DNA from: Methylobacterium sp. 2A
GTDB lineage: Bacteria > Pseudomonadota > Alphaproteobacteria > Rhizobiales > Beijerinckiaceae
Assembly: GCF_009806555.1 (NCBI RefSeq)
Contig: NZ_VUOK01000003.1
Location: forward strand, 186,001 to 250,000
Length of the DNA: 64,000 nucleotides
Direction: 5' to 3'
Positions 47,924-64,000 of this stretch are shown in pieces. The stretch's first letter is position 1. Each line of letters begins with the position of its first letter. Made by a program: the position numbers and the translations under genes. Below the pieces are notes generated by a model. The model saw only the letters and a list, made by a program, of their open reading frames with translations. It was not told the origin of the DNA and made no database searches.

Positions 47924-48112
47924 TTAAAACTACGCCCGCCCCCCGGCGAATAATGTCGTCCTTTGAGCGCGCTGATAGCGAAGGGCCATCGCAACGTCAC
48001 TGCGGCGTTCGGTTCAGCGCTTTACGATGGCTCTCTGATCCACGTCGGAGTTGCCATGTGGCCCGCGGATGGCTGCTTTTGGGATGCTCCGGTGGACACC
48101 CGCACCACCGTG

Positions 48113-48212
48113 TTGGGTCGATAGAGGTTGGTCCGCTTGTCCGGCGTGGCCTCTCCGAAGCAGACCGACGGCTTTTGGCGAGACTACGCCATAGCGGATC
48201 GCCGGGCGCGCG
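48113..48212 (+). repeat. Dispersed repeat, copy B, in the 47.9-48.4 kb gap
   Basis: It aligns with 21561-21660 in the same orientation (shared TTGGGTCGATAG, TCCGCTT, TCTCCGAAGC, GACC, GCTTT blocks). It lies in the 450-base gene-free space between the LOV kinase and decayed IS/ATPase pieces. Nothing else is seen in that gap. Confidence 0.5.
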
Positions 48213-48375
48213 AAACCTGTCGTTCGGCTTTGCGGCGAGTGCCGGAAGTCAGATGAAGCCGGCAGCCTCCCGGAAGCAGATGGAGTGGATGGCTCCCGCT
48301 CCGACTGACGGCATGTCGGTGCCAAGATGTGGTTGCTACCGAATCCGCAGCCACGCAGGTGCAGGAGCCATCCCC

Positions 48376-48453
48376 ATGGAGATCACCACTGTCGGCATCC
48401 ATCTGGCCAAGAGCATCTTTCAGGTTCATGCCGTCGATGCAGCTGACAGCGTC
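48376..48453 (+). mobile_element. IS110 family transposase, N-terminal fragment
   Basis: [22 protein letters not shown] is the DEDD-type start of IS110 transposases (usual [21 protein letters not shown]). The catalytic Asp of GIDLAK is replaced by His. Only about 25 codons remain before the sequence changes to a P-type ATPase in the same frame. It is a dead relic of an element that recombined at this site. Confidence 0.7.
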
Positions 48454-48460
48454 GCGGCCG

Positions 48461-48935
48461 CGTGCGCAGGCGCCATCATGCTGACCGGCGATAATGCCCG
48501 CACGGCCCAGGCCGTCGCCAGCGCGCTCGGCATCGGGGCCCGGGCCGAGCTCCTGCCGGAGGACGAGCTGCGCATCGTGCGCGAGCTCCAGGGCGCGGGC
48601 GCCGTCGTGGCGAAGGTCGGCGATGACATCAACGACGCCCCGGCGCTGGCGGCCGCCGATGTCGGGATCGCATGGGTGGCGGCACGGACGTCGCGTAGGA
48701 GACCACCGATGCCGCGATCCTGCACGGACGGGCCGCGGACGTGGCCCGCATGGTCGCGCTCGCCCGTTAGACGCTCGGCAACATCCGGGCGGATATCGCC
48801 ATCGGCCTGAAGCTGGTTTTCCTGGTGACGACCATCGTCGGCATAACCGGCCTGTTGCCGGCGATCCTGGCCGACACCGGGGCGACCGTTCCGGTGACGG
48901 GCAACGCTCTGCAGCTTCTGCGCGCACGAATCTGA
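48461..48935 (+). pseudogene. P1B-type metal ATPase, C-terminal remnant
   Basis: The remnant begins at [23 protein letters not shown] (P-domain MLTGD), continues [19 protein letters not shown], then frameshifts by one base. It goes on in the next frame with two TAG stops (GTDVA[14 protein letters not shown] and LAR-stop-TLGNIR), through the last membrane pair (VFLVTTIVGITGLLPAILADTG) to the stop at 48935. This is about the last quarter of a ZntA/CadA-type heavy-metal exporter. It is joined in frame to the IS110 fragment. It can no longer work. Confidence 0.8.
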
Positions 48936-49501: not shown

Positions 49502-50449
49502 TCATGCCGGGCTTGAATCCCACGGGTCCGCGGCATGGCTCAAACCGTCTGCGGGACCGCCGCCGCCGGACGGGATGACCCGCCTGCGGGTCTCCTCCTT
49601 CGCCGCGGCGACCCGCAGGCCGACCTCGGCGAGGTTTTCCAGGCGCAACTGGACCCGCTCCGGCGGCAGGTCGATCAGGTCCAGGTTGTGGCGCTTGATG
49701 AAGTAGAAGGCCATCGACAGACGCACCTCCACCTCCCTGGCGCCGTCGACCATCCCGTAGTCGCGCTCGATCGCCCGGCGCTGGTCGTCCGTCAGCCCGG
49801 GATGCGGCAGCACCCTCAAGGTGATCGTCGTGTGCCACTCGACGTCGTCGGCGGGCTCGTAGCTGGCGGCCTCCGCCCCCCCGAACTCGTCGATCCGGCT
49901 CAGGACGAAGTCCCGGAAATCCTTGTGGTCGCAAGCCCAGGCGCGCACGTGCCACCGCGCACCGTCGAAGGCGAGCGCGTGCGGCGCGATGACCCGCCAA
50001 CGCGAGTTCGTCAGCGACTGGTAGCGGATCCGCAGGGCGCTGCGCGACCGCATCGCGCCGAGGATCAGCCGGAGGCACTCCGGATCCACGTGCCTCGCGA
50101 CGTCCGGCGCCATGTCGATCGCCGGCAAGGTCTTGAACCACACGACGTCCCGGGGGAGGGCCCCGGACATCAGCGCCCGGAGCTGCAGCAGGAGCCTGTC
50201 CGCCGACGGCACGAGGAACCGGGGCCGGATCGCGGCGCCGGGCACGAACGACTTCGCCGTGGAGTCGTACTCGACGTTGCCCTCCGCCAGGCCGCGGTAA
50301 TTCTTGAGGTCGACCGAGGCCTGCGGCGTCGAGATGTCGAAGGCCGCCTCCAGGTCGCTGCGGTTGAGCTGCCCTTCCCAGAACAGCTTCCATTCCATGA
50401 ACTCGTATCGGACGTTCCTCGCCCAGACGCGCCGCTCCGGCTCGGCCAT
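49502..50449 (-). CDS. WYL domain transcriptional regulator (BrxR/CapW type)
   Basis: A 315-residue protein. The ATG at 50449 follows GGAGGGGTAGAC. The N-terminal winged HTH (about residues 12-80, RYEFMEWKLFWEGQLNRSDLEAAF, STPQASVDLKNY) leads into a WYL domain (about 125-200, ALRIRYQSLTNSRWRVIAPHALAFDGARWHVRAW) and a C-terminal WCX extension (HNLDLIDLPPERVQL). This arrangement is the repressor type that guards BREX, CBASS and other defence islands. It diverges from the E2-E1 operon across 164 bases containing a palindrome. A nucleotide ligand is proposed for WYL domains; none is shown here. Confidence 0.85.
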   Translation of the reverse strand: MAEPERRVWARNVRYEFMEWKLFWEGQLNRSDLEAAFDISTPQASVDLKNYRGLAEGNVEYDSTAKSFVPGAAIRPRFLVPSADRLLLQLRALMSGALPRDVVWFKTLPAIDMAPDVARHVDPECLRLILGAMRSRSALRIRYQSLTNSRWRVIAPHALAFDGARWHVRAWACDHKDFRDFVLSRIDEFGGAEAASYEPADDVEWHTTITLRVLPHPGLTDDQRRAIERDYGMVDGAREVEVRLSMAFYFIKRHNLDLIDLPPERVQLRLENLAEVGLRVAAAKEETRRRVIPSGGGGPADGLSHAADPWDSSPA

Positions 50450-50472
50450 GTCTACCCCTCCGCTCACTTGAC

Positions 50473-50491
50473 GGGTATAGCAACAATACCC
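50473..50491. promoter_or_regulatory. Palindromic operator for the WYL regulator
   Basis: GGGTAT, 7 bases, ATACCC. It lies 24-42 bases before the regulator ATG. On that strand it contains a TATACC -10-like box, and on the other it overlaps a TTGACG -35-like box at 50468-50473. Binding could block both divergent promoters. Confidence 0.5.
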
Positions 50492-50613: not shown

Positions 50614-50976
50614 ATGCAGGACGGAAACAAGCAGGATCGGATCCAGCACGATGCGGCGGACATCGTCGAGGCGGCGACCGACATCGAGCGGCAGCGCGCG
50701 ATCGAGTTGGACGCCCGTTCGGAGACGGCGCGGATCGACGCCGAGATGGCCGAGCTCGCGCGCCGTCGCGTCATCCAGGAGGACGCCGCCACGAAGGCGC
50801 ACGCGGCGATCGCCGCCGACGAGCGGCGGATCGCCGAGGACGACCGCGACATTCGCGATGCCCTGAACGGCGGCGATTGCCCGCCCGCCCATGGCGGTCA
50901 GCCCGTGCCGCCGGCCGCTCCCCCCGCGCCCGGCCCCGGGAACCCGCCGGTGGTCCCCCCGCGTCGCGTCGGATGA
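50614..50976 (+). CDS. Helical protein with a proline-rich tail ending in glycine; candidate conjugation substrate
   Basis: A 120-residue protein behind an AAAGGAGCG ribosome binding site. Residues 10-84 form highly charged amphipathic helix (DIVEAATDIERQRAIELDAR, EMAELARRRVIQEDAATKA). Residues 88-117 are rich in Pro, Gly and Ala, and the chain ends PPRRVG. There is no beta-grasp pattern, signal or known domain. Its stop overlaps the start of the E2-E1 fusion (ATGA) and a JAB peptidase follows, so this small protein sits where the modifier or target should be. The flexible tail with terminal glycine is what an E1 enzyme would need to adenylate. That role is my inference. Confidence 0.65.
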   Translation: MQDGNKQDRIQHDAADIVEAATDIERQRAIELDARSETARIDAEMAELARRRVIQEDAATKAHAAIAADERRIAEDDRDIRDALNGGDCPPAHGGQPVPPAAPPAPGPGNPPVVPPRRVG

Positions 50977-52697
50977 GCGTGCCGGCTCCCATGGCCCGGT
51001 CGGGCGGCCCCGTCGGCGGCGACACGCCGTGCGGGGCGGCCTGGCCGGACCGTTTCACCTGGGAGCTCGCCCGGCTGCGCGAGCGGGGGCGCGTGACCGG
51101 CGCCGGCCGCGAGACCGCGCCGCCCGGATTCCTGGTCGTCCGATACGAGTGGGACCATCGGGGCCGCACGCTTCCGCTGGCGATCATCTACCCGCCCGGC
51201 TTTCCCCTGACGCGACCCGAGATCCGGATGCTGCGGGTCGAGGATCGCCCGCGCAACCACTGCAACCCGGTGAACGGCAACCTCTGTTTCCTGGCGCACG
51301 ACCGGCATGCCTGGCAGCCGGAGACGTCGGTCGCATCCTACATCGAGGATCGGCTGCCGATGATCCTGGACGGCACCCCCGACGGCGAGCCGGTGGCCGA
51401 GCCCATGGAGGATTGGTGGGCGGCGCTCGCCGTGCCGGGCTCGGCCTTCGTGATCGAGTCGGGATGGGAATTGGGCACCCATACCTGCGGCACGTTGGCC
51501 TTGCGGGTCGGGGTGGTGCCCGGCCGCCCCCCCGCGCTGCGAGCGTTCGTGGAAGGGGTCCTGGACGGCGGCGGCGGCGAGATCGCCCGGAACGCCGGTC
51601 CGCTTCCCCTGGAGTTCTCCGCAGCGCGTTCGATCCGTGTCCCGTGGCGACTGCTCGACGAGGAACCCCAGCCGGACGAATACGAACGCGTGTTCGGCGC
51701 CGTGTCGCCCGGCACCGGCACGACAGGGCTGATCCCGCTCGCCGACAGTCTGCGCGCCCGCATCGCGGCCGTGGCGTGCAGGACCGAGATCACGCACGGC
51801 GAGCGCGGCCTGTCCTGGATCCTCCTGGTCCGCACGGGCAGCCGGCGGGCGTTCGAGCACGGCCGCGCGGACCAGATCCATTCCGGCACGGCCCGGACGT
51901 TGCGGGCGGGGTTGGACGACCGCCGCTCACGCTCCCCGTCCGCAGGCGTCATCGCGGGGAAGCGGATCGCGATCGTCGGCCTCGGCGCCGTCGGCGCCCC
52001 GGTCGCCCTCGACCTAGCGCGCAACGGGGCGCGTTCGATCGCGATGGCCGACTTGGACATCGTCACGCCGGGCAATGCCGTGCGCTGGCCGCTCGGCGAG
52101 TCGGCATGGGGACGCTTCAAGGTCGACGCCCTCGCCGACTTCATCGCGGCCAACCATGCGGCCACGCGGACGGCGGTCGCCCGAATGCCGATCGGCAACC
52201 TCGACTTCCGGACGGCCGAGGGGGAGGGGGGCGAGTTCGTCGCCGCCCTCAACCAGGCCGATCTCGTCGTCGACTGCAGCACCTCGTTCGAGGTCGAGCG
52301 GCTCCTCGCCCGACATGCCGGGAGCATGGGTGCGCCGCTGATTTCCGCCTACGGCACGGCGGCGTTCACCGGCGGCGTCGTGGCATGTTTCGCGCCCGGG
52401 GGTGGCTGCCCGAACTGCCTGCTCCACCAATACGGGTCCGGCGCCATCGCGCGGCCGTCCGGCGAGCGGGGGGACGCGCACGCGGTTCGGTTGCCCGGTT
52501 GCGCCGACGCGACCTTCTCCGGAGCCTCGCACGACCTGGGCGAGCTGTCGATGCACGCGGTGCGCGTCGCGGTCCGAACCCTCCGCGCGGCGCCGGCGAC
52601 GTCGTTCGTCGAGACATTGAACTTCGTCGGCGAGGACCGGAGGCCCGCCTGGCGCTTCGATCCATTCGAACGCCATCCGGCCTGCGCCTGCGGTTGA
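50973..52697 (+). CDS. E2-E1 fusion (Cap2-like ubiquitin-type conjugating enzyme)
   Basis: A 574-residue protein. The E2-like N-terminal domain (about residues 25-135) has IIYPPGFPLTRPEIR and the catalytic motif HCNPVNGNLCFL with the presumed thioester cysteine near 105. A linker domain with some E2-like features follows (about 150-320). The E1/ThiF domain begins with GLGAVGAPVALDLARNG near 336, then ADLDIVTPGNAVRW (Asp, Asn, Arg of the adenylation site) and GRFKVDAL. Its own presumed cysteine is in LPGCADATFSG near 509. CPNC near 479 and CAC at the C-terminus could bind zinc. Overlaps on both sides (ATGA, TTGA) couple it to the helical protein and the JAB enzyme. Confidence 0.87.
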   Translation: MSVPAPMARSGGPVGGDTPCGAAWPDRFTWELARLRERGRVTGAGRETAPPGFLVVRYEWDHRGRTLPLAIIYPPGFPLTRPEIRMLRVEDRPRNHCNPVNGNLCFLAHDRHAWQPETSVASYIEDRLPMILDGTPDGEPVAEPMEDWWAALAVPGSAFVIESGWELGTHTCGTLALRVGVVPGRPPALRAFVEGVLDGGGGEIARNAGPLPLEFSAARSIRVPWRLLDEEPQPDEYERVFGAVSPGTGTTGLIPLADSLRARIAAVACRTEITHGERGLSWILLVRTGSRRAFEHGRADQIHSGTARTLRAGLDDRRSRSPSAGVIAGKRIAIVGLGAVGAPVALDLARNGARSIAMADLDIVTPGNAVRWPLGESAWGRFKVDALADFIAANHAATRTAVARMPIGNLDFRTAEGEGGEFVAALNQADLVVDCSTSFEVERLLARHAGSMGAPLISAYGTAAFTGGVVACFAPGGGCPNCLLHQYGSGAIARPSGERGDAHAVRLPGCADATFSGASHDLGELSMHAVRVAVRTLRAAPATSFVETLNFVGEDRRPAWRFDPFERHPACACG

Positions 52698-53179
52698 CCC
52701 GTCTCGCCATCCCCCGACGCCTTCTCGAACTTTGCGTCGCGGCGGCCGACGCGGCCCTGCCGCACGAGGAGGGCGGGATCCTGCTCGGATCGCGGGACGG
52801 CCGCGGCGACCGGTTCGTACGCCACGTCATCGGGTCCGGGCCCGGCGCGCGCCGGGCCCGGACCTGGCTCGAAGTCGACCACGACTGGCAGAATCGCCGG
52901 ATCCGCGATCTCGCGGACCGTGGCGGCGACGTGGCGTTCCTGGCGGACTGGCATTCCCATCCGGACGCCACGGACGCCGCGTTGAGCCGGTTGGACGTCG
53001 CGACCCTGGCGAAGCTGGCTGGCTTCACCCCCTTGGGTTGTCCCGACCCGGCCATGATGATCCTGTTCCGCGGGGCGGACGGTTGGCGCGCCGGAGCCTG
53101 GAGGCTGGCACCCGGCGCCCGGCGGCCAAGGGGCGTCGCCCCCGTCGGGGTCGAGGTCGTCGACGAGGTGACGCCGTAG
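52694..53179 (+). CDS. JAB/MPN metallo-isopeptidase (Cap3-like)
   Basis: A 161-residue JAMM-type peptidase. The zinc/acid motif is EEGGILLGS near residue 28 (Glu) and ADWHSHPDATDAALSRLD (two His, Ser and Asp) near residue 95. The spacing to Asp is one residue longer than the classic count. The start is a TTG that overlaps the E2-E1 stop (TTGA); no strong ribosome binding site exists, so translation probably depends on reinitiation. In CBASS type II, Cap3 removes the conjugate made by Cap2; the same is likely here for the helical protein. It faces the helicase-nuclease gene across 144 bases. Confidence 0.83.
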   Translation: MTRLAIPRRLLELCVAAADAALPHEEGGILLGSRDGRGDRFVRHVIGSGPGARRARTWLEVDHDWQNRRIRDLADRGGDVAFLADWHSHPDATDAALSRLDVATLAKLAGFTPLGCPDPAMMILFRGADGWRAGAWRLAPGARRPRGVAPVGVEVVDEVTP

Positions 53180-53323: not shown

Positions 53324-56300
53324 TCATGCGCCGCCGGCGAGTGACGGCGGAGCCTCGGTGCGGCACGCCTCACGTACGGCCCCGGCCAGGGCCCCCGCCG
53401 GGGGAGCTACCGAAACGACCCGCCCGTCCGTGGCAAACACGATCAGGCCGATGCCGGCGCCCGTCGCGGCCATGTAGCGCCGGACTTGGCCCCGGTACCC
53501 CTCGACCGCGGACTCCGTCGGCGCGACGTCGCTCTTCCAGTCCACGACGACCTCCGGCCGCCCGGACTCGTCGTAGGCCATCGCGTCGACGATGCCGGCC
53601 GTCGCGTGGTCCTCGCCGTCGCGTTCCTCCAAGGCGTACACCGGCAGCTCCGGCACGAGGCGTGCGCGCAGGGCCGCGATGGCGGGCACGGCCAAGGCCC
53701 GGGCCGCGCAGGCCGCCACCTCGTCGGGGTCCACGTCCCGGACGGCGAGCTGCATCGCGAGCTGGGAAGCGCGGAGCGCGAGATCGCCGCCCTCGTCGGT
53801 CTCGCCGGTCAGCAGCTCCTCGATGAGCTTGTGCAGGATCAGCCCGCGATCGCGGCTCCCGCGGACGGCCGCCGCGAGGCCGGGCGGCGCGACGGGCGCC
53901 TCGATGTCGGGCGCCTCGATGTCGAGGGCCCCGCCGGGCGCGGCCTCGTCGCCCTCGTGGCGGCTCGGCACGACCCATCTCAACCGGCGGTGGCCTGCCA
54001 CCCGCGCGGCCTCCTCCGCGAAACTCTCGCGCGTCTGGGCGTTGCGACCCGCGGGACCGGTCCTCGCGCCCGGGACCGGAAGCCGGTCCATGTCGATGGC
54101 GGCCAGCCGGTCCAGCCCCAGGCCGACGACCGAGGCCCAGGCGTCGTCGTGGGCCGGGTCGGGGAACCGCGGGATCACCAGGGTCTCGCGCGCGCGGGTC
54201 GCGGCCACGTACCAGAGCCGCACGCGCTCGTTCCCGACCTCGCGGTCCTCGGCGGCCAGGACGGCGTCGTAGCCGGCCGGCCGCACCCCGAAGACCGGGC
54301 AGTAGAGGCAGTTCGAGGCGCGGTCGACCAAGGCGCCGCTCGCCGGGATCGTGAGCGTCGAGGTGTTGATCGGGATGACCACGGGCCATTCGAGGCCCTT
54401 CGACGCGTGCATGGTGAACAGGGAGACGGCCTCGGCCTGGGCGTCCGGACGCCCCTCGACCGCGCGGGTCCGGCCGTCCCAGGCGGCCTGCATCGCGCGG
54501 GCGAACGCGCGCAGTCCGCGCACGGCGTACGGGCGGGACATCTCAAGGTACAGGTCGACGTTGGCCAGGGCGCGCTCGGCGTGGCCGTCGTGACGCCGGC
54601 CCAGGACCGGCCTCAGCATGACGGCGTCGACCGCCCGGCTGAGGATGTCGTACGGCGTGGTCCCCAGCGCCTGCCGCGCCAACGCCTGGAGGCGTTCGAG
54701 GACGGGGCGCGCGACCGGGTGCGCGACGGCGGCCACGTCGATCCCGAGGCGCAGGGGCGGCACGGCGTCCGGCCGGTCCGGGTCGCGCGGCAGGCCGTGG
54801 ACCAGGTCCAGCAGTTCCTCGTCGGTCAGGCCTACGGTCGGCCCGCGCAGGAACGCGCCGAGCGCCAGGGTGTCGCGCGGGTCGGCGAGGACGCGGGTCA
54901 GGGCGATGAGGTCCTGGACCTCCTGGCGACGGAAGAAGCCCTTGCCGGCCTGCGTCGACACGGGGACGCCCCGGGCCTCCAGCGCCTCCTCGTAGCGCCA
55001 CAGGTCGCTCCCGCTCGGCGCCAGCAGGGCGATGTCGCCGGGCCGGAGGGGCCGCGTGCCGTGGGTCTTGCACGTGACCAGCTGCGTCCCGATCAGGCGG
55101 GCGCAGAGTTCGGCGACCGCCTCCGCCTCGGCGTCCCGCAGGGCGCCCGCCTTGCGCTTGGTCCCGTCCGCCGGGCCGGGCACGTCGAGGGCGGCGACGC
55201 AGGGGCCGCGGTCGTGGTCCTCGTGGAACGCCGCGAGGGGGGCGAACCCGGGCTGGCCGGGTCCGGCCAGGATGTCCTGGAAGCACCGGTCGACGAACGC
55301 GAGGATCGACCGGCAGGACCGGAAGTTCGTGGAGATCGGCACGACGTCGTCGGGCGAGCGGGCCAGGATCCGCTCGCGGGCGCGGACGTAGGTCGAGACG
55401 TCGGCGCCGCGGAAGCGGTAGATCGCCTGCTTCGGGTCGCCGACGAGGAACAGGGCGCCGGGCCGCAGCACGCGCGCCGTCCAGTCGTCGGCGGGCGCCC
55501 CCTCCGGCCGTTCCCCGCACAGCAGCCAGAACAGCATCGCCTGCTGCGGGTCGGTGTCCTGGAACTCGTCCACCAGCACGTGCCGGTGCCGCCGCCCCAG
55601 CGCCTGCCGGACCGGCTCGTGGTCCCGGAGCAGGCGCACCGCGGCCTCGACGAGGTCGTCGAAGTCGAGCAGGCCGCCGGCCCGCTTGCGCTCCCGGTAG
55701 CGGTCGAGGACCGTCCGGACCCGGGGCACGAGCCTGGCCAGGAGCTCGCTCGCCGCGGACGCCCGCATGCCGTCCCACGCGGCGCAGCAATCCCCGTGCA
55801 GCGTCTTGGCCGCGGCATGGAGCCTGTCCGCCTCGACCTTCGGGAGCCCGGCGCTCCGGACCGCGGCCTGCCACTTGCCCTTCCCGCCCTTGTAGGCCGC
55901 GAACGCGCCCTTCGACGTGCAGAGCGCCGGGTCGGGCTTCGCCGTCAGGACGCCCAGGAGCTCCGCGTCCCCGACCGGGCCGTGCGCCGGCGTCCGGGAC
56001 GCCATCGCGCCGAAGGCCGCGGCGGCGGCCGCGGTCTCGGCCTCGGCGGGCGACGCCGCGACGAAGGCGGCGTAGGCCGCGACGCTTTCGGCGAAGCCTT
56101 CGGCGAGGCGGGACGACGGCACCGGGGGCGGCGGGCCCACGGCGCGGCCCGCGCGCAGGCAGCCGGCGACGCGCTCTACCGCCTTCTCGGCGGCGACGGG
56201 ATCCGCGAGGAACATCTCCGCCACGAGGCATCGGCCGCCCGCGAGCGTCTCGCGCAGCCAGCCGTCCAGGATGTCGCGGAACAGGCCGTCGGCCTCGGCG

Positions 56301-56737
56301 TCGTCGGCGACGCGCGCCCCGGGGTCCATGTCGGCCTCGACCGGGTACGGCTTCACGAGCCGCTGGCAGAACCCGTGGATGGTCGTGCACACCAGTTCGT
56401 CGATCCGGCCCTGCGCGGCGGCCAGGCTCCCCTCCTGCTCCCGCGTCAGGCCATGCGGCAGGACGCAGCGCAACTCCTCGGGGACCTCCCCGGCGAGGAG
56501 GCGGTGGACGACGTCGCCGATCCGCTCCAGCAGCTCGCTCGCGGCGAGCTCCGTGAACGTCACCGCCGCGATCTCGCGCGGCGGGACGCCGGACGCCAGC
56601 ATCATGGCGATCCGGCCGGAGAGGACCGCCGTCTTCCCGGAGCCGGCGCCGGCCTCGACGAGCATGGAGCGGTCGTGCCGCGCGATGGCCAGGGCGCGCT
56701 GCCCCGCGTCCGCCAAGGCCCTGTCGTGCACGGTCAT
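53324..56737 (-). CDS. UvrD/RecB-like helicase-nuclease (AddA-like)
   Basis: The ATG at 56737 overlaps the stop of the upstream gene (TGATG). The 1137-residue protein has an SF1A helicase: Walker A EAGAGSGKTAVLSG at 28-41, ICTTIHGFCQRL-like segment, VDEFQDTDPQQAMLF (Walker B), VGDPKQAIYRFRGADV, TMHASKGLEWPVVIP and WYVAATRARETLVIP. A C-terminal PD-(D/E)XK nuclease has GIVDAMAYD, EVVVDWKSD and YRGQVRRY (GxxD, DxK and QxxxY). This is the AddA/RecB plan, a DNA end processor. It is paired with the AddB-like gene. The chromosomal AddAB is normally elsewhere, so this looks like a defence-island paralogue. Confidence 0.85.
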   Translation of the reverse strand: MTVHDRALADAGQRALAIARHDRSMLVEAGAGSGKTAVLSGRIAMMLASGVPPREIAAVTFTELAASELLERIGDVVHRLLAGEVPEELRCVLPHGLTREQEGSLAAAQGRIDELVCTTIHGFCQRLVKPYPVEADMDPGARVADDAEADGLFRDILDGWLRETLAGGRCLVAEMFLADPVAAEKAVERVAGCLRAGRAVGPPPPVPSSRLAEGFAESVAAYAAFVAASPAEAETAAAAAAFGAMASRTPAHGPVGDAELLGVLTAKPDPALCTSKGAFAAYKGGKGKWQAAVRSAGLPKVEADRLHAAAKTLHGDCCAAWDGMRASAASELLARLVPRVRTVLDRYRERKRAGGLLDFDDLVEAAVRLLRDHEPVRQALGRRHRHVLVDEFQDTDPQQAMLFWLLCGERPEGAPADDWTARVLRPGALFLVGDPKQAIYRFRGADVSTYVRARERILARSPDDVVPISTNFRSCRSILAFVDRCFQDILAGPGQPGFAPLAAFHEDHDRGPCVAALDVPGPADGTKRKAGALRDAEAEAVAELCARLIGTQLVTCKTHGTRPLRPGDIALLAPSGSDLWRYEEALEARGVPVSTQAGKGFFRRQEVQDLIALTRVLADPRDTLALGAFLRGPTVGLTDEELLDLVHGLPRDPDRPDAVPPLRLGIDVAAVAHPVARPVLERLQALARQALGTTPYDILSRAVDAVMLRPVLGRRHDGHAERALANVDLYLEMSRPYAVRGLRAFARAMQAAWDGRTRAVEGRPDAQAEAVSLFTMHASKGLEWPVVIPINTSTLTIPASGALVDRASNCLYCPVFGVRPAGYDAVLAAEDREVGNERVRLWYVAATRARETLVIPRFPDPAHDDAWASVVGLGLDRLAAIDMDRLPVPGARTGPAGRNAQTRESFAEEAARVAGHRRLRWVVPSRHEGDEAAPGGALDIEAPDIEAPVAPPGLAAAVRGSRDRGLILHKLIEELLTGETDEGGDLALRASQLAMQLAVRDVDPDEVAACAARALAVPAIAALRARLVPELPVYALEERDGEDHATAGIVDAMAYDESGRPEVVVDWKSDVAPTESAVEGYRGQVRRYMAATGAGIGLIVFATDGRVVSVAPPAGALAGAVREACRTEAPPSLAGGA

Positions 56738-59385
56738 CAGGGCGCTTCCCACACCAGGGCGGCGTCGCCGAGCGCCGCCGTCGCCGACGCCCGCTTGCGC
56801 GGGCAGTACACCTCGCCGGCGTTGGCCGGCAGCGCGAAGGCGAGGTCGTTCCACCCGGCCTCGGTGTCGGGTCCGGGCAAGGCGTTGCCCGCCCCGAGGC
56901 TTCGCCCGGCCGCCGCGAGGTGCCGGGCCAGGTCGGCCAGCGCCGCGTCGGGGCGTTCGAGGGCGATGCAGGTCCGCTCGCGCGGGTAGTGAAGCGAGGC
57001 GTCTATGGCCACGTCGCCGCCGAGCAGGACCCGGGCGGCGTAGCCGTAGATGCAGCGCTGCAGCTCCCGGCCTCCGGCCAGCACGTCGTCGGACCCGCGG
57101 GGCTTGCCGGTCTTGTAGTCGCGGACGCGGGCCGAGGCGCGGTCCCCCGAGAGGTCGAGGCGGTCGATGTAGCCGGAGATGCGGAAGCCCGTCCCCGGGA
57201 TCTCCACGGGCAGGTCCGGATCCCACGGGACGGCGCCCCCGGCCCGCTTGGGGCCCCGGCCGCCGAACGGCACCTCGACCCAGCTGGACTGCCCCTCGTA
57301 GGCGTCGTCGGGGTGCGTGAGCGCGCTCCACGACGCGACCGACACGTCGTCGAGGACCCGGCGCCAGACCACCGCGGGCGGGATCGCCCGCCCGCGCTCC
57401 CACGCGTCGGCCACGGCCCGGACCGCGCCCTCCAGTGCCGCCCGCCGCGCGGCCTCGGACGACGCGGCCCCGTCCCCCGCCTCAAGGGCGATGACCGCCA
57501 GCTCCAGCACCTCGTGCATGAGGTTGCCGAACGCGCGATCGTCCAGCGTCAGCGTCTCCTGGCTGGAATCGGCGGCCTGGAGGCCGAGGCCGTAGCGCCA
57601 CACGAAACCGAGGGGGTCGCGCAGCAGCTTGCGCAGGGAGTTGGCGGAGTGCACCCGGCCCAGCACCGACAGGATGACGGGGTGGTCGGGCCGGACCAGG
57701 CCGTCGTGCGGCGTCGGGGAGTGGGAGGCCCACGACGCCCAGCAGGAAGCGGCGGACCGGGCCTGGGCCGTGGACGCGAACTCCTCCGGCCGCGCCGTGA
57801 GCCGGTCGACCTCGCCGGCGGCATGCTCGGGGACGCGGTTCCTCCCGAGGTGCGCGCCGTCGGGGTGGTCGCGCAGAAGAGGGCTGCGGCCGAGGAGCCG
57901 GCCGTCGGCGCCGCGGCGGGCCCGCGACAGCACCACGGCGTCCGCGCTCGTGGCGAGGATCGCGTCGAAGTCGCCCCGGTCGACGGCCGAGCGCGGCTGC
58001 GGATCCAGGACGTGCGAGGGGACCAGATGGTCCGACAGCAGCCGGTCCTCCGTGGCCACCTGCGGCCAGCCGCGCGAGCTCAGCCCGAGGAGCCGGACGA
58101 ACCGCCGCGGGGCGCTCGCCAGGGAGGACGCCGGCACCCAGACCACCGACGTGCCGGCGTCGGCGTCGTCGTCGATGCGCTGCCGTGACAGCGTCAGGTC
58201 GACCACGGCGGGCGCCCCCTCCAGCAAGGCCTTCCGCCAGATCCGGAGCGCGAGCCCGGATAGCAGGGCCTCCCCCGCCCGGGCGGCCCCCGCGGTCCCG
58301 GCGGCCAGGAGCGCCAGGATCGCGCGAAGCCCGGCGGCCAGCGCGGGACCCTCCGAGTGGCCGGTCACTCCCTCCCCGCCCAGCAGGCGCTCCCAGGCGG
58401 GGAGGTCGGAAAGCGGGGCCTCGCGGGGCAGGATCCGCGTCCATCCCTCCGGCAGGGCGGCGAACGGCCCGGGGGCGTGCCGCAGCAGCGCGGCGAGGCG
58501 GCGCAGGCCATCCTGCGTGACGCCCCTCACCAGGATGTCCGCGAGCGCCGCCGCCGCCTGCCCCTCGCGCACCGCCGTCGCAGGGACCCCGTGGACGAAC
58601 CGCACGTCCAGGTTCGCCTCCGCGCGGAGCGCGAGGACGACGTCGTCGTAATCCTCCGTCCTGCAGGACGACACCGCGATCTCGGACGGCCGGGCCCGGC
58701 CGGTCGCCATCAGCCACCTCGCCCAGCGGAAGGCCTCCAGCACCTCGTGGCGTGGCGTCGCCGCGGTGCAGACCTCGACCGCGGGCGCCGAGCGGGGCCC
58801 GTCGACGACGCGAAGGGCCGCCGCCGGCACCCATTCGGGAACCGGGCGCGGCCCCGAGGCCCAGCAAACCGCCACGTGCCGGGCCAGGGCCGCGGCGACC
58901 CCTCGCCAGCAGGGCGCGAGGTCCGCCATACCCTGGAAGGTCGTCGGCCCGAGCACGCGCCCGGCGTGGGCGGCGCGGGCCGTCGCGGCGGCGGCGAGGT
59001 CGGTGGGGCGCATCATACCTGACGGCAGCTTCCCGACGACGGCCGCCTCCAGCCTGGCGAGGGACGCGACGCGGCCGGCGCCCGCGCCGTCCAGGGCGAA
59101 CCCGGCAGCCCAGGCCTTCCGCAGCGTCTCCGCCGCGGCGTCGACCATGCCCGGGAGCGACTTGATCGGGTCGAGCTCGCCGATCTCGACCTCGTCCAGG
59201 GCCTCCTTGAGCGCCCCCCTGAGGGACTCGTCGTCGATGGGGCGGGCGAAGCCGCCGGCGAGGCGCGCGGCCAGGGCCTCCACGGTCAGCACCTGCACGC
59301 CGTGCTCGCCCCGGCGAGCCGCCGCCAGCCGTTCGTCCGCCACGGCCAGTCGACCGTGGACCACAACCGTCCGGCGAAACCCCAT
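56737..59385 (-). CDS. PD-(D/E)XK nuclease with inactive helicase-like part (AddB-like)
   Basis: I use the ATG at 59385, with GAGGTGGGGG upstream. The open frame begins at 59442, but that region carries a promoter. The 882-residue product has a helicase-like first two-thirds without an intact Walker A. A C-terminal PD-(D/E)XK nuclease (about residues 660-810) carries GYIDRLDLSGD, ARVRDYKTGKPRG and ELQRCIYGYA, matching AddB and RecB-type nucleases. A lone CPRK near the end recalls, but does not complete, the AddB iron-sulfur site. Its stop overlaps the helicase gene, so the two subunits are made together. Confidence 0.82.
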   Translation of the reverse strand: MGFRRTVVVHGRLAVADERLAAARRGEHGVQVLTVEALAARLAGGFARPIDDESLRGALKEALDEVEIGELDPIKSLPGMVDAAAETLRKAWAAGFALDGAGAGRVASLARLEAAVVGKLPSGMMRPTDLAAAATARAAHAGRVLGPTTFQGMADLAPCWRGVAAALARHVAVCWASGPRPVPEWVPAAALRVVDGPRSAPAVEVCTAATPRHEVLEAFRWARWLMATGRARPSEIAVSSCRTEDYDDVVLALRAEANLDVRFVHGVPATAVREGQAAAALADILVRGVTQDGLRRLAALLRHAPGPFAALPEGWTRILPREAPLSDLPAWERLLGGEGVTGHSEGPALAAGLRAILALLAAGTAGAARAGEALLSGLALRIWRKALLEGAPAVVDLTLSRQRIDDDADAGTSVVWVPASSLASAPRRFVRLLGLSSRGWPQVATEDRLLSDHLVPSHVLDPQPRSAVDRGDFDAILATSADAVVLSRARRGADGRLLGRSPLLRDHPDGAHLGRNRVPEHAAGEVDRLTARPEEFASTAQARSAASCWASWASHSPTPHDGLVRPDHPVILSVLGRVHSANSLRKLLRDPLGFVWRYGLGLQAADSSQETLTLDDRAFGNLMHEVLELAVIALEAGDGAASSEAARRAALEGAVRAVADAWERGRAIPPAVVWRRVLDDVSVASWSALTHPDDAYEGQSSWVEVPFGGRGPKRAGGAVPWDPDLPVEIPGTGFRISGYIDRLDLSGDRASARVRDYKTGKPRGSDDVLAGGRELQRCIYGYAARVLLGGDVAIDASLHYPRERTCIALERPDAALADLARHLAAAGRSLGAGNALPGPDTEAGWNDLAFALPANAGEVYCPRKRASATAALGDAALVWEAP

Positions 59386-59412
59386 CGCCAACCCCCACCT
59401 CGGATTGCGGGC

Positions 59413-59442
59413 ATTATCGGAGCACGCGATCCTTATGGTCAA
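59413..59442 (-). promoter_or_regulatory. Near-consensus sigma70 promoter for the AddB-AddA-like pair
   Basis: On the reverse strand TTGACC (59442-59437) and GATAAT (59418-59413) are 18 bases apart. The start site would be near 59405, about 20 bases before the ATG at 59385. This suggests the pair can be expressed independently of the upstream Shango genes. Confidence 0.55.
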
Positions 59443-59515: not shown

Positions 59516-61834
59516 TCAGGCGCCGGGTTCGAGGATGCGGCGCGCGACGTCAGGGACGGCGTCCGCCTCCAGCCGCTCGACCGCCAGCGACCGGGCGAGC
59601 AGGGCGTCGGTCAGGTAGCCGTCGTACTTCTCGCGGACGGGCTTCGCCGCCAGGCCGGCAAGGGCGCCGGCGTCGGGGGGCGGGGAGCCGGCGATGTCGG
59701 TGAGGACGGCGCGCAGGTCGCCCGCGGAGCAACCCCGCACCTCGACGGCGTGGCCGTAGGGCGTGGCCTGCAGGTTGCGGGCCAGGAGCGTCAAGGCCAA
59801 CGTCTCAAGCTTGGCCGCGCCGACCCACGGCAGGACCGTGCAGTCACGCCCGACCTCGACGATGCAGGTCCCGTCGAGGCCGTACCCCAGGAAGGCCGCC
59901 CTGCCTTGGTCGAGCAGCGCGCGAGCCCCGGCGTCGAGGTAGGCGGGCATCCCGGTGCCGGACAGGCATCGCCGCATCGCCGCGGCGACGGCGTCGTGCA
60001 CGCCCGACCATCCGCCGCCGAACCTCGGCGGCAACGCCGACTTCGTGGGAGCCACCACGACGACCTTGGCCCGTGCGTCCAGGGACTCGATCCGCCATCG
60101 GCGGCCATTGAAGATGATCGTCTGCCCGGGCGCCAGCGTCAGGTCGAGCGGCACCGTGCCCAGGACCTTCCCGCCGACGACCATGACCCGGTACTCTTCG
60201 TCCGTCTGGAAGACGGCGTAGAACTGATGGCCCTCCGCGAGACGCTCGCCGGCCGGCCCCAGCATCAGCAAGCCGTCCGGCGACATCTCGACCAGGGCCG
60301 CCTCGGGACGCGCGATCGCCCTTAGCAGCTCGACGAACAGGTCGCGCGAGACGTTTCGAAACGGCCCGCGCCCGCAGAGCGTCCTCCAGGCGGCGTCCGG
60401 CCGCAGGCCCCCCGTCTGGGCGACGAGCGCGAGCACCTGGTGTGTGAGCGTCGAGAGATGCAGCCCGCCCACCCGCGGCGGCTCGCACCAGCGCTCCAGG
60501 AGCAGGTCGACGGTCGCCACGGCCTGCACGAGGTCGAGGCGCAGCCGGTCCGCCGGATGGAGCGTCGGCCCCGCCGCCTCCTCGGCGACGTAGATGCGCA
60601 GGACCGATGGCATGCCGGGCCGCCGGCCGGACCGCCCGAGCCGCTGGCGGAGCGACGACACGGATGGGCCCGGACCGATCTGCGCGACGCTCTCGACGTC
60701 GCCGATGTCGATGCCGAGCTCCAGGGTCGTCGTCGCCACCGCGGTCGTCGGCCGGCCGTCCTCGCGCAGGCGGGTCTCGACCGCCTCGCGCTCGGCCCTG
60801 GCGAGGTTGCCGTGGTGGGCGAAGAACTCGTTGGGGAGCCGCGCGTCCTCGGCGAGGGCGCGCAGGCGGTCCGCATACACCTCCACCCGCTGCCGGGATC
60901 CGGCGAACAGGAGGTTGCGGCGGCCGCGGAGCACCTCGAACAGGTGAGACGCGATCGGCTCGTCGGCCCCGTTCGCGTCCGGGGCCGGCTTCACGGGTTC
61001 CGCGCGCTCCGGACCGTCGGCGTCGGGGGCGCCTTCGCGACGCGCGTCCGCGGCTTCGCTCCCGGTGCCATTTCGCGGCGGGCGCTCGTAGCCGCGGACC
61101 TGCAGCAGCAGGTCGGCGCCGCCCTCGCGGCTCTCCACGAGCCGGACCGAATCCGGGGCGCCCGGCCGCAACGCCTCCCGGGCGAGGCGCATGTCGCCCA
61201 ACGTGGCCGACAGCCCGACGCGGTCGACGTGGTCGCGCCCGCAGGCCACCTCGACGCGCGTCAGGAGGGACTGGAGCTGGCGGCCCCGCTCCGTGCCGAC
61301 GAAGGCGTGCAGCTCGTCCACCACCACCGCGTCGAGCGCCCCGAACAGCCGCGCCGCGTCGGGTCCGCGGCGGACCAGCGTCGCCTCAAGGGATTCCGGC
61401 GTGATCAGCACGACGCCCTGGGGGCGCTCGCGCGCCTTGCGCTTCGCGTCGGCCGGGACGTCGCCGTGCCAACGGTGCAGGGGGACGTCGCAGGCCTGCA
61501 GCAGGCCTTCGAGGCGCCGGTGCTGGTCGTTGATCAGCGCCTTCAGCGGGCAGACGTAGAGGATGGCGAACCCGGGCCTCCCGCCGTCCAGCCGCGGCAG
61601 GACGCGCGTCAGCAACGGCAGGAACGCCGCCTCCGTCTTGCCCGCGGCCGTGCGGGCCGAGAGGATCACGTCGCCGCCCGCCAGTATCGCCGGGACGGCC
61701 ATCTCCTGGACCTCGCGCAGCGCGGTCCAGCCCTGCCGCCAGATCCAGCGGCGCACCGGCTCGGCCAGGGCTTCGAAGGCCGTCGAGGCCGCGTCGGGGA
61801 CGACGTGGGCGCCCGGCGCCCGCGCGCCTGTCAC
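59516..61834 (-). CDS. sngC: Lhr-like DEAD/DEAH helicase, Shango SngC
   Basis: The start is a GTG overlapping the ATPase stop (GTGA), giving 772 residues. SF2 motifs are all present: SARTAAGKTEAAFLPLL (about residues 59-75), PLKALINDQ, ITPESLEA, VVVDELHAF, LSATLGD, TTTLELGIDIGDV and RQRLGRSGRRPG. The C-terminal half holds Lhr-type winged-helix and oligonucleotide-binding regions. Lhr-like helicases occur in several defence systems (BrxHI in BREX, SngC in Shango). The TerB and DUF2791 ATPase genes just upstream decide for Shango. It probably translocates on and unwinds incoming DNA. Confidence 0.85.
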   Translation of the reverse strand: MTGARAPGAHVVPDAASTAFEALAEPVRRWIWRQGWTALREVQEMAVPAILAGGDVILSARTAAGKTEAAFLPLLTRVLPRLDGGRPGFAILYVCPLKALINDQHRRLEGLLQACDVPLHRWHGDVPADAKRKARERPQGVVLITPESLEATLVRRGPDAARLFGALDAVVVDELHAFVGTERGRQLQSLLTRVEVACGRDHVDRVGLSATLGDMRLAREALRPGAPDSVRLVESREGGADLLLQVRGYERPPRNGTGSEAADARREGAPDADGPERAEPVKPAPDANGADEPIASHLFEVLRGRRNLLFAGSRQRVEVYADRLRALAEDARLPNEFFAHHGNLARAEREAVETRLREDGRPTTAVATTTLELGIDIGDVESVAQIGPGPSVSSLRQRLGRSGRRPGMPSVLRIYVAEEAAGPTLHPADRLRLDLVQAVATVDLLLERWCEPPRVGGLHLSTLTHQVLALVAQTGGLRPDAAWRTLCGRGPFRNVSRDLFVELLRAIARPEAALVEMSPDGLLMLGPAGERLAEGHQFYAVFQTDEEYRVMVVGGKVLGTVPLDLTLAPGQTIIFNGRRWRIESLDARAKVVVVAPTKSALPPRFGGGWSGVHDAVAAAMRRCLSGTGMPAYLDAGARALLDQGRAAFLGYGLDGTCIVEVGRDCTVLPWVGAAKLETLALTLLARNLQATPYGHAVEVRGCSAGDLRAVLTDIAGSPPPDAGALAGLAAKPVREKYDGYLTDALLARSLAVERLEADAVPDVARRILEPGA

Positions 61835-63171
61835 AGCCGCAGGCGCGCGAGGTCGTCGGTCCCCGCGGCCTCGCCGTCGCCGTCGTCCGCGGGCGCCGAA
61901 GCGTCGGCGGCGCCGTCCTCGGGTATGGCCACGGCGCCGAGCCGTTCGCGCCAGTCCGCCCCCGGGTTCTGGTCCAGCACGGCCAGGAGGTCCACGAACG
62001 CCTTGACCGTGTTGCGGGGCGTGCGGAAGTAGGCGTCGCCCACCCTGGCCCGGCAATGGTCGAGGAACGCGTGCAGCGCCTCGTCCGGGACCAGGTGGCG
62101 GGCCCGGTCGCCGCCCGCGAACACGTCCCGCAGGCGTTCGAGCAGGACCAGCATCTCCTCGGGGGTCAGGTTCTGCAGCCGGACCACGGGACCGGACAGG
62201 TCCACAAGGCCGTCCGTCGCGAAGCTGTTGCCCGCGAGCCGGGACTGGAGCGCCTCGTAGGAGTAGAGGCCCCGCCGCGTGTCCAGCAGGAACTCCGGCG
62301 TCCCGCCGAGGACGAACCCCAGGCCCTCGACCGTGCCCTGGAGGACGTCGTTGAGGACGCGCAGGATCTGCTCGTAGTTCTGGTTGCGGGCCTGGGGGCT
62401 CTGGAGCTTGTAGAGGTTCACGAGCTCGTCGAGGCAGACGAACAGCCCGTCATAGCCGGCGAGGCGTACGAAGCGGGCGAGGAGCTTCAGGCTGTCGTAG
62501 ACGTTCCCGTCGTCGATGATGCCGCGGACGCCGAGATCCTGGCGCGCCTCGGTCCGCGTCGCGTACTCGCCCCGCAGCCAGCGCAGCGCGTTCGCCTGCC
62601 GTGCCTCGTCGCCGTCCTCGTGGGCCGCGGCGTAGGCGGCGACCACGGTGGCGAAGTCGTAGCCTCCCACCTGTTCCTGCAACTCGGCGAGGCCGGCCCG
62701 GATCGCGTCCTCGGTCGCGCGCCCGGGGCGCTTCCCGTCCTCGACGGCCCTGGCGACGAAACGTTCGAGGACGTTGCGCATGGCCCCGCCGTCGGGCGCC
62801 GCGCGGGTCGCGAGGTTCCGGGCGAGCTCCGCGTACAGCAGCCGCGCCTGGCCCCCCGTCGCGTGGAGCCGGCGGTCCGGGGCGAGGTCGGCCTGCATCA
62901 CCACCAGGTTCTTGGCCAGGGCGAGCTGGCGCACGAGGAAGAGGAAGAACGTCTTCCCCGCACCGTACTCGCCGACGACGAAACGCAACGCCGCGCCGCC
63001 GTCGGCGACCCGCGAGACGTCCGCGAGGAGCGCCTCGATCTCCCTTCGGCGCCCCACCTGGATGTGCTGCAGGCCCAGGCGCGGCACGACCCCCGCCCGC
63101 AGTGCGTTGACGATGGTGTCGCGGTCCCGGGGCCTGATGTTCGGCGCGGGCTTGGTGACGGTGACGGTCAT
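61831..63171 (-). CDS. sngB: DUF2791 (BrxD-type) ATPase, Shango SngB
   Basis: A 446-residue P-loop protein. The Walker A loop is VVGEYGAGKTFFLFLV at about residues 66-80 and Walker B is GLFVCLDELVNLYKL near 250. The GGTPEFLLDTRRGLYSYEALQSRL segment typical of BREX-associated DUF2791 ATPases is near 300. The C-terminal tail (about 405-446) is acidic and disordered. It overlaps both neighbours (ATGA with the TerB gene, GTGA with the helicase). BrxD is the closest named relative, but no other BREX gene (PglX, PglZ, BrxC) is here. In Shango this protein is the ATPase that works with the TerB protein. Confidence 0.84.
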   Translation of the reverse strand: MTVTVTKPAPNIRPRDRDTIVNALRAGVVPRLGLQHIQVGRRREIEALLADVSRVADGGAALRFVVGEYGAGKTFFLFLVRQLALAKNLVVMQADLAPDRRLHATGGQARLLYAELARNLATRAAPDGGAMRNVLERFVARAVEDGKRPGRATEDAIRAGLAELQEQVGGYDFATVVAAYAAAHEDGDEARQANALRWLRGEYATRTEARQDLGVRGIIDDGNVYDSLKLLARFVRLAGYDGLFVCLDELVNLYKLQSPQARNQNYEQILRVLNDVLQGTVEGLGFVLGGTPEFLLDTRRGLYSYEALQSRLAGNSFATDGLVDLSGPVVRLQNLTPEEMLVLLERLRDVFAGGDRARHLVPDEALHAFLDHCRARVGDAYFRTPRNTVKAFVDLLAVLDQNPGADWRERLGAVAIPEDGAADASAPADDGDGEAAGTDDLARLRL

Positions 63172-64000
63172 GCTGTTTCCAAAAGGTGGGCCGGGATCAG
63201 GCCGACGTTCACGAGGACCGGGTCGCCCTCCTCGACGAGCGGGTCGTCGAATCGGTCGAAGGACCACGCGTTGAGGTCCTCCATCGCCGCGCCGGGCATC
63301 AGCCCGCGCTCGCGGGCCAGGCGGTCGAACGCGTCCCTCGGCCACTCGGGTCGCCCCGCGAGGGCGCGCATCAGGCCGGCGAGCCGGGCGTCGAGGCCAT
63401 CGAACCCGCCGTCGGGGGCCCCGGGGGCGGCCATCGGGGCCGGTTCGGCCTCGGGGGGCGCCCCCTGCGCCTCACGGATGGGGTCGGCGTCCAGGTCGAA
63501 CACCCCGGCGAGGACGGAGCTCACCGCCTCGGTTTCCGACCTGATGGCGGCCAGGCGCTCCGCATCGACGCGTCCCGCCGGCGCGGGCGGTCCCCGTTCC
63601 GCCCGTCGGGACGCGTCGGCGGCCGCACGGCCCGACGGCTCCCGCCCGTCCTCGGGGCCGCCGGGGATGAGGAAGGCCGCCTCGCGCGCCGGGCCGCGCG
63701 CGACGAGCACGGGCCCGTCCGGCGCCGCCGCCGGCGCGGCCCCGTGCAGCGCCGAGTACAAGCCGTTGAGGTCCAGGCCCATCTGACGGAACGCCTTCTC
63801 CAGCAGCGCGATCTCGGCCCGGTGGTGGCGGCCGTCGCTGGACGCCACGCGCACGAGCGTGTCGGCGACGGCCCGCTTCCGCTCCGGGTCCAGCCCGGCG
63901 AGCCGGGCGCGCATCGAGGTGAGCTCGGTCGGGTGGGCTTCGAGCCACGATGCGTCGGCACCCAGCCGCAAGCGCTCGTCCGGGCCGAGGCCCGGCGCAT
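63168..64000 (-). CDS. sngA: TerB domain protein, Shango SngA, C-terminal part (cut by the window edge)
   Basis: The frame is open to the last base, so the start is outside the window; about 277 residues are visible. The TerB domain (LDPERKRAVADTLVRVASSD and AEIALLEKAFRQMGLDL) occupies the first visible 60 residues. A disordered Pro/Ala-rich region follows, and then a TerB_C-like region (AAIRSETEAVSSVLAGVFDLD and the C-terminal DPVLVNVGLIPAHLL). TerB proteins bind metal and sit at membranes in tellurite and phage stress systems. Its stop overlaps the ATPase start (ATGA). It is the first gene of the Shango set, so its promoter lies to the right. Confidence 0.82.
   Translation of the reverse strand, partial: APGLGPDERLRLGADASWLEAHPTELTSMRARLAGLDPERKRAVADTLVRVASSDGRHHRAEIALLEKAFRQMGLDLNGLYSALHGAAPAAAPDGPVLVARGPAREAAFLIPGGPEDGREPSGRAAADASRRAERGPPAPAGRVDAERLAAIRSETEAVSSVLAGVFDLDADPIREAQGAPPEAEPAPMAAPGAPDGGFDGLDARLAGLMRALAGRPEWPRDAFDRLARERGLMPGAAMEDLNAWSFDRFDDPLVEEGDPVLVNVGLIPAHLLETA

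Follow-up and report, generated by a model that had tools for sequence, protein, structure and literature searches.

A Cap2/Cap3-type operon of Methylobacterium sp. 2A with a predicted proline-rich Val-Gly tail modifier in the place of the CBASS cyclase

Ubiquitin-type conjugation is usually pictured as the movement of a folded beta-grasp protein, and the Bub (bacterial ubiquitination-like) operons use ubiquitin-like modifiers. Pup is a disordered protein modifier, like the one proposed here, and is attached by a different ligase chemistry without E1, E2 or JAB. In the type II cyclic oligonucleotide-based antiphage signalling system (CBASS), Cap2 makes a thioester with the C-terminal glycine of the cyclase cGAS, a CD-NTase (cGAS/DncV-like nucleotidyltransferase) without a beta-grasp fold, and Cap3 cuts at the same end (PMC10097602). 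The CBASS cyclase is conjugated to PspA, reversibly and scarlessly (PMC11153139). Here we analysed a 64,000-nucleotide stretch of Methylobacterium sp. 2A (contig NZ_VUOK01000003.1, positions 186,001 to 250,000; the window), which carries a three-gene operon for a small protein, a fusion of a conjugating (E2) and an activating (E1) enzyme domain, and a JAB isopeptidase. Judging from sequence and by analogy to CBASS, this is likely a Cap2/Cap3-type conjugation operon in which the CD-NTase is replaced by a modifier, the essential part of which is a disordered, proline-rich tail ending in Val-Gly.

The operon shares with type II CBASS the order of a Cap2-like E2-E1 fusion followed by a Cap3-like JAB gene, a first gene whose product is not a beta-grasp protein and has a conjugatable (here predicted) C-terminus (PMC10097602), and regulators of the CapW or CapH+CapP type (PMC13373217). 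It differs in that neither a CD-NTase nor a nucleotide-activated effector was seen in the window operon, and in that the modifier is a proline-rich peptide, bare or with a small payload. The original prediction, made from this DNA alone, described three overlapping genes, the first encoding a 120-residue helical protein ending PPRRVG, and these reading frames and their coordinates were found as described: the start of E2-E1 overlaps the modifier gene by ATGA and JAB overlaps E2-E1 by TTGA. The same prediction saw no CD-NTase, ubiquitin-like or DUF6527 protein. None was found by Pfam scans of the four locus proteins and, at E<=1e-5, of nine larger neighbouring open reading frames (ORFs), which cover part of the window's ORFs. 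No nucleotide-responsive effector and no metallo-beta-lactamase was present among the nine scanned neighbours, and no further gene recurs in the unit.

In most relatives the slot before E2-E1 is occupied by a proline-rich peptide of 39-70 residues, probably unstructured, that ends in Val-Gly, in a few cases with extra residues. The relatives were collected with tblastn of the E2-E1 protein against plasmids (34 records) and with a scan of a genome collection of 84,980 species, using an alignment of eight E2-E1 proteins as query (44 more loci). Seven of the first eight plasmid loci had a short proline-rich Val-Gly ORF directly upstream of E2-E1, and the eighth (L009; L and G numbers denote loci and genomes) also has the peptide, overlapping a mis-set gene start. 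We then counted, over the 52 relatives and the window, all proline-rich ORFs ending [RKHQ]x?[VI]G with zero to three residues allowed after the glycine, among 10,614 six-frame ORFs of at least 25 codons. In this descriptive count, 50 of the 53 loci had exactly one such ORF, always adjoining E2-E1. The three loci without it are all broken: only the E1 part was matched in L024 and L047, and the peptide is frameshifted in L055. A second draw of 242 genomes from the genus of G746 gave 28 match rows in 20 genomes. The peptide was found in 17 of 17 loci with an intact 5' end of E2-E1, which are not 17 independent events because some are near-copies of first-draw loci. The peptide of L108, which ends PPPRRVG plus six residues (CDSADK), lies outside the pattern and was spotted by eye. 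L107, with its broken 5' end, lacks the peptide. The remaining ten rows are fragments of broken genes; seven of these have the peptide and three lack a pattern match (L114, where the peptide is frameshifted, L118 and L119). A non-ubiquitin partner ending in glycine, as originally proposed, is thus well supported, since the same tail stands beside E2-E1 in every intact locus, and no unlinked homologue of the small protein was found within the loci examined.

The peptides are conserved mainly at their end. Among 44 distinct peptides from 51 loci, all have Val-Gly (the pattern required the glycine, and every intact locus had it) and 42 have Arg or Lys at position -4, while the overall composition is 35% proline and 14% glycine with few hydrophobic residues besides valine. 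Conservation of a C-terminal glycine had been put forward as a check: Val-Gly itself is invariant, but one or two residues follow it in 4 of the 44 peptides and six in L108. These extensions are CDSADK (L108), QQ (L008 and L026), R (L018), Q (L021) and QG (L044), and they fit a maturation step in which JAB would trim a precursor. All four valine and all four glycine codons occur at the peptide end. In 19 related peptide pairs, changes were found at 306 of 653 synonymous and 124 of 1840 nonsynonymous sites, a roughly sevenfold denser synonymous change; because the pairs overlap, this is an indication only that the peptide is under purifying selection at the protein level.

Such a short ORF, with 35% proline and placed right before E2-E1, in many cases overlapping it or separated by a few bases (the spacings are rough, with starts chosen by script), might also be a leader peptide. 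Ribosomes stall at proline runs, and stalling could control the translation of E2-E1 while the peptide itself has no role as a protein. We regard this as very unlikely, given that Val-Gly is conserved, sometimes with extra residues beyond it, and that N-terminal modules have been added to the tail in the window (a helix), in L032 (a DUF1508 pair) and in L109-L111 (His-rich stretches). A leader peptide would moreover leave E2-E1 and JAB without a modifier, and in CBASS the same slot holds the conjugated CD-NTase.

The part in front of the tail is variable: nothing in most relatives, a helix in the window and other modules elsewhere. In L032, a Hymenobacter metagenome-assembled genome, two DUF1508 (YegP-like) stretches are fused to the Val-Gly tail (1602-2090, E=1e-21), giving a modifier of 162 residues counted from the ATG. 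YegP homologues have been reported after capK+capS (PMC13373217). Upstream of E2-E1 in L109, L110, L111 and L116, His-rich N-terminal stretches, possibly metal-binding, precede tails that end RRVG as in the window. The window protein was predicted by AlphaFold2 as one helix (residues 3-85) followed by an unstructured tail, a rough guide since it was run on a single sequence. Its first 88 codons have a guanine-cytosine (GC) content of 0.77/0.43/0.91 by codon position, similar to E2-E1, JAB and CapW, and a good ribosome site (AAAGGAG) precedes the gene; the helical part is taken as coding because of these two features. The 120-residue protein gave no significant match to Pfam and other family libraries and no match in plasmids. 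Only the window and one further strain, 99.87% identical at the locus, were seen to have the helix; small indels interrupt the E2-E1 frame in that strain's assembly. The assumption that the helix is the essential partner is not supported, because most relatives have the proline-rich tail only, and the helix was rejected as the conserved partner. Since the relatives' slot holds the bare tail and the CBASS slot a CD-NTase with a conjugated C-terminus, the conserved part is, as far as sequence comparison can tell, a disordered conjugation tail, and the helix a module added in the window's lineage. We lean somewhat towards a broader proposal, by analogy, in which the portable proline-rich Val-Gly tail is a general handle for Cap2-like enzymes, either bare, as an unfolded tag on target proteins, or fused to a payload (helix, DUF1508/YegP, His-rich stretch and, by analogy, the CD-NTase).

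Matches to the helical part in 14 further genomes (16 of 199 with the window's own genome and the near-identical strain) were not accepted as homologues; eight such loci were inspected, most of them resembling antisense reading frames and one forming a long coiled coil. The window's genome contains a second PPRRVG-stop, in a reading frame that looks non-coding, its third-position GC being 0.52.

Loci outside the family were used for comparison. Nine further plasmid loci were opened, of which L058 and L064 belong to the family and have the peptide. In L059, L062, L063, L065 and L066 an annotated nucleotidyltransferase gene precedes E2-E1; in four of these five CD-NTases a proline-rich stretch leads into a terminal PGGFA or PDGFA, and the fifth ends RTFG. 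Neither peptide nor nucleotidyltransferase occurs in L060, where a short ThiF gene adjoins an insertion sequence, or in the unannotated L061. The Val-Gly peptide was found in none of these seven non-family loci (L059-L063, L065, L066), and a looser pattern (six prolines) had a single match, which lies on the opposite strand of L063 and has an end other than Val-Gly. A Klebsiella plasmid, not covered by the peptide scan, has a DncV-like gene in the slot before E2-E1. On a plain reading, by analogy, the peptide would take the cyclase's place as the conjugated object.

The shared slot, the similar proline-rich tails of CD-NTases and the Cap2 and Cap3 homologues could instead point to an eroded type II CBASS that has lost its CD-NTase and kept a functionless tail. 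This is the least probable of the explanations weighed here, and we give it hardly any credence, as 37 family E2-E1 proteins separate from three CBASS Cap2 proteins on a 100/100 branch, and the members come from several phyla, with conserved catalytic residues and purifying selection on the peptide. The tree rows were 31 of 39 relatives with a full ORF, five second-draw loci (four new tails and one near-copy) and the window, with three of five Cap2 rows. A first, quick tree (41 family and five Cap2 rows) gave the same split with a support of 89, with a warning that long branches may meet. From the deep split, the several phyla, the conserved residues and the selection on the peptide, the system appears old and maintained.

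The window E2-E1 protein matched ThiF (E=1.4e-20) and the PADLOC E1-E2 models, while its E2 half alone matched Prok-E2_B weakly (E=0.023, below the model cut-off); the same model was matched at E<=0.01 by 17 of 35 family members, at best with 4e-39. A fused E2-E1 was found in the window and in all 39 relatives from which a full ORF could be extracted, the 52 relatives minus eight with broken frames and five without a suitable script start; L011 is annotated as two genes, with the split inside the E2-E1 protein. An alignment of 34 of these relatives (five near-copies left out) and the window had invariant His96 and Cys105 in E2, and nucleotide-binding glycines, Asp360, Asp362, Arg371, Lys383, Asp434 and Cys510 in E1, in 35 of 35 proteins, with Cys479, Cys482 and Cys571 nearly invariant. 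From their position and conservation, Cys105 and Cys510 would be the catalytic residues. The family profile matched Cap2 (7to3) in the E1 part (E=8e-25), and its E2 part matched human UBE2L3 (about 7e-6). The AlphaFold2 model of E2-E1 (mean pLDDT, the predicted local distance difference test, 79; below 50 in the loop around Cys510) aligned with Cap2 7to3 over residues 23-565 (Z 22.5, root-mean-square deviation 6.3 over 489 residues), and single E1 domains score equally high; as modelled, the similarity to Cap2 extends over almost the entire fusion. The window JAB matched Prok-JAB (E=2.6e-10) and the PADLOC JAB model and has the JAMM residues; its score against the NCBI Cap3 equivalog model is far below the cut-off. 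By pattern, 47 of 52 relatives have an intact JAMM motif.

By analogy with Cap2, the E1 domain would adenylate the terminal glycine and form a thioester at Cys510, and the E2 domain would receive the tail on Cys105 and join it to a target lysine. JAB would undo the bond, as Cap3 does, and would trim the few tails with residues beyond Val-Gly. As the tail carries a helix in the window, the attached object would there be a helical payload. CapW would keep the operon off and release it upon DNA damage, as elsewhere.

Proline-rich peptides often bind non-covalently, and the adduct of the conjugation reading is a prediction, so the peptide could also be a non-covalent adaptor or regulator that recruits targets to E2-E1, with something else being conjugated. 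We consider this unlikely. The Val-Gly end with its JAB-compatible extensions speaks for a substrate, no other gene recurs beside the operon, and the sole SMODS (CD-NTase) protein found in the window's genome, on another contig (G000:C2:173854-174195), ends GRRW and not in Gly or Ala. The E2-E1 search of this genome returned the window copy only. E2-E1 and JAB are the sole ORFs of at least 90 codons that occur in more than seven of the loci. A set of 819 ORFs of 30-130 codons found close to the operon, in 30 loci picked to exclude near-copies and with the Val-Gly peptides removed beforehand, was clustered and gave no cluster present in more than two loci. As no further ORF cluster is widely common to the loci, neither a beta-grasp protein, named earlier as a possible true partner, nor any other partner recurs. 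The unit comprises three genes.

Few members of the system were found in the genome samples searched. Matches were found in 1 of 385 genomes of a class sample (the window's own), in 2 of 398 of a phylum sample and 2 of 297 of an order sample (in both cases the window's own genome and G746), and in 20 of 242 of the one-genus sample; members may be missed because only a few best candidates per genome were scored. A genome scan with a single protein gave no match, nor did viral contigs and phages.

The coordinates of the operon and the neighbouring genes are collected in Table 1. CapW of the window matched the solved CapW structure 9c5g (E=5.7e-125). The inverted repeat in front of it is absent from the listing of the repeat tool, and a promoter scan of the operon found nothing. 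Genes of a Shango system lie near the operon (PADLOC models; SngC 7.1e-252, SngB 3.4e-173, SngA 3.6e-72). Immune operons are released by CapW and CapH+CapP upon DNA damage (PMC13373217). Of ten upstream proteins chosen in relatives, eight were from HTH (helix-turn-helix) and Peptidase_M78 genes upstream of L028, L041, L045, L046 and L049, which by domain appear to be of the CapH+CapP type, and the other two were AbiEii and OLD-like. A defence role is likely because of the CapW-type regulators and the neighbouring Shango genes.

Table 1. Positions of the operon, its parts and neighbouring genes in the window
Feature	Position	Strand	Basis or remarks
CapW (WYL) transcriptional regulator, divergent from the operon	49502..50467	-	family and structure match
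Candidate CapW operator GGGTAT-N7-ATACCC, inverted repeat in the CapW/operon intergenic region	50473..50491		read by eye
Modifier gene, 120 aa: helical module (aa 1-88) and proline-rich tail ending PPRRVG	50614..50976	+	
N-terminal helical (coiled-coil-like) module, lineage-specific	50614..50877	+	coding GC, AlphaFold2
Proline-rich conjugation tail (predicted), conserved, terminal Val-Gly	50878..50973	+	tail comparison with relatives
E2-E1 fusion, Cap2-like, 574 aa	50973..52697	+	His96/Cys105 (E2), Cys510 (E1), Cys479/Cys482, Cys571/Cys573
JAB/JAMM isopeptidase, Cap3-like, 161 aa	52694..53179	+	Glu25, His87, His89, Ser98, Asp101
UvrD-type helicase, between operon and Shango	53324-57403		
PD-(D/E)XK nuclease, between operon and Shango	56737-59442		
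SngC	59516-62056	-	PADLOC
SngB	61831-63345	-	PADLOC
SngA	63168 onward, past the window end to about 252578 of the window's contig (G000:C1)	-	PADLOC

Upstream of CapW, the ORF at 47953-48810 has a partial HAD-hydrolase match and is perhaps a remnant of a P-type ATPase. With a view to an empty-site comparison, a long match to the neighbouring helicase gene was found in the window's genome and only G011 and G019 among 61 genomes searched. A RES-family gene stands just upstream of the operon in L009, L025, L029, L030, L035, L036, L058 and L064, accompanied by an Xre/MbcA/ParS antitoxin gene where annotated (L009, L058, L064).

The suggestion that such an operon is undescribed is tentative. Operons of E2+E1 and JAB were listed as types 6a-6c by Iyer et al. 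in 2006 (PMC1779556), and Cap2/Cap3 are the nearest characterised enzymes; no proline-rich modifier is named in the excerpt of that paper used here. Row 6c has an E2+E1 fusion and JAB with the NGR234 megaplasmid as prototype, and both E2-E1 loci found in pNGR234a fall within the window's E2-E1 family. Row 6c also lists a predicted metal-binding protein (PMC1779556). The only third widely recurrent gene seen here is the peptide, and since the other conserved proteins of 6c are unmatched to our loci, 6c may or may not be this family. In row 6a, E2, E1 and JAB are in one protein beside a metallo-beta-lactamase (PMC1779556), whereas the window JAB is a separate gene. The window's E2-E1 and JAB are related to domains of the 6A-MBL model (NCBIfam NF058523; E=7e-20 and 1.5e-10), but at 71 and 40 bits they score far below its cut-off of 320. 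Bil (bacterial ISG15-like) and Bub operons also have E1, E2 and JAB-type enzymes, and Bub can be controlled by CapW, CapH+CapP or CapK+CapS (PMC13373217). Bil has separate E1 and E2 genes, which are fused in the window, and a ubiquitin-like modifier (PMC11354881), of which none was seen at the window operon. In the open-access literature, with subscription papers and preprints outside the search, no description of such a proline-rich modifier was recognised, and a prior description elsewhere is possible.

Several points weigh against the conjugation reading. We infer all of the conjugation chemistry by analogy, and the structure predictions are of single chains, which places the tail in the E1 site outside their reach. 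The JAMM pattern is missing in 5 of the 52 relatives, the last residue of a few peptides differs from the glycine of Val-Gly, and the helical module is represented by one independent locus only. The window E2-E1 is a long, divergent branch within an alphaproteobacterial group of 12. Regarding the sampling, the count of 50 among 53 loci is descriptive because the pattern was written after the first eight loci had been seen, the genome scan favours one subfamily because one E1 motif was used, most loci are alphaproteobacterial, and the second draw is from one genus and includes near-copies of first-draw loci. The defence role, which is probable, is by association only.

From CBASS it is known that such a machinery can take an enzyme as its cargo, and the present family suggests that a short flexible tail suffices, so that a bare disordered peptide can serve as a modifier. 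The system is very small and testable, with about 45 residues and two enzymes, and could be used to study how phage or host proteins are affected by a conjugated disordered tag. In mass spectrometry, tails that end RVG, like the window's, are predicted to leave Val-Gly on lysine after trypsin digestion (+156.09 Da). The CBASS cyclase tail and modifiers that stand alone may also be linked. If the broader proposal of a general tail handle is true, the family would carry out ubiquitin-type E1-E2-isopeptidase chemistry without any beta-grasp modifier, and its Val-Gly tail may be older or younger than the tail of the CBASS cyclase.

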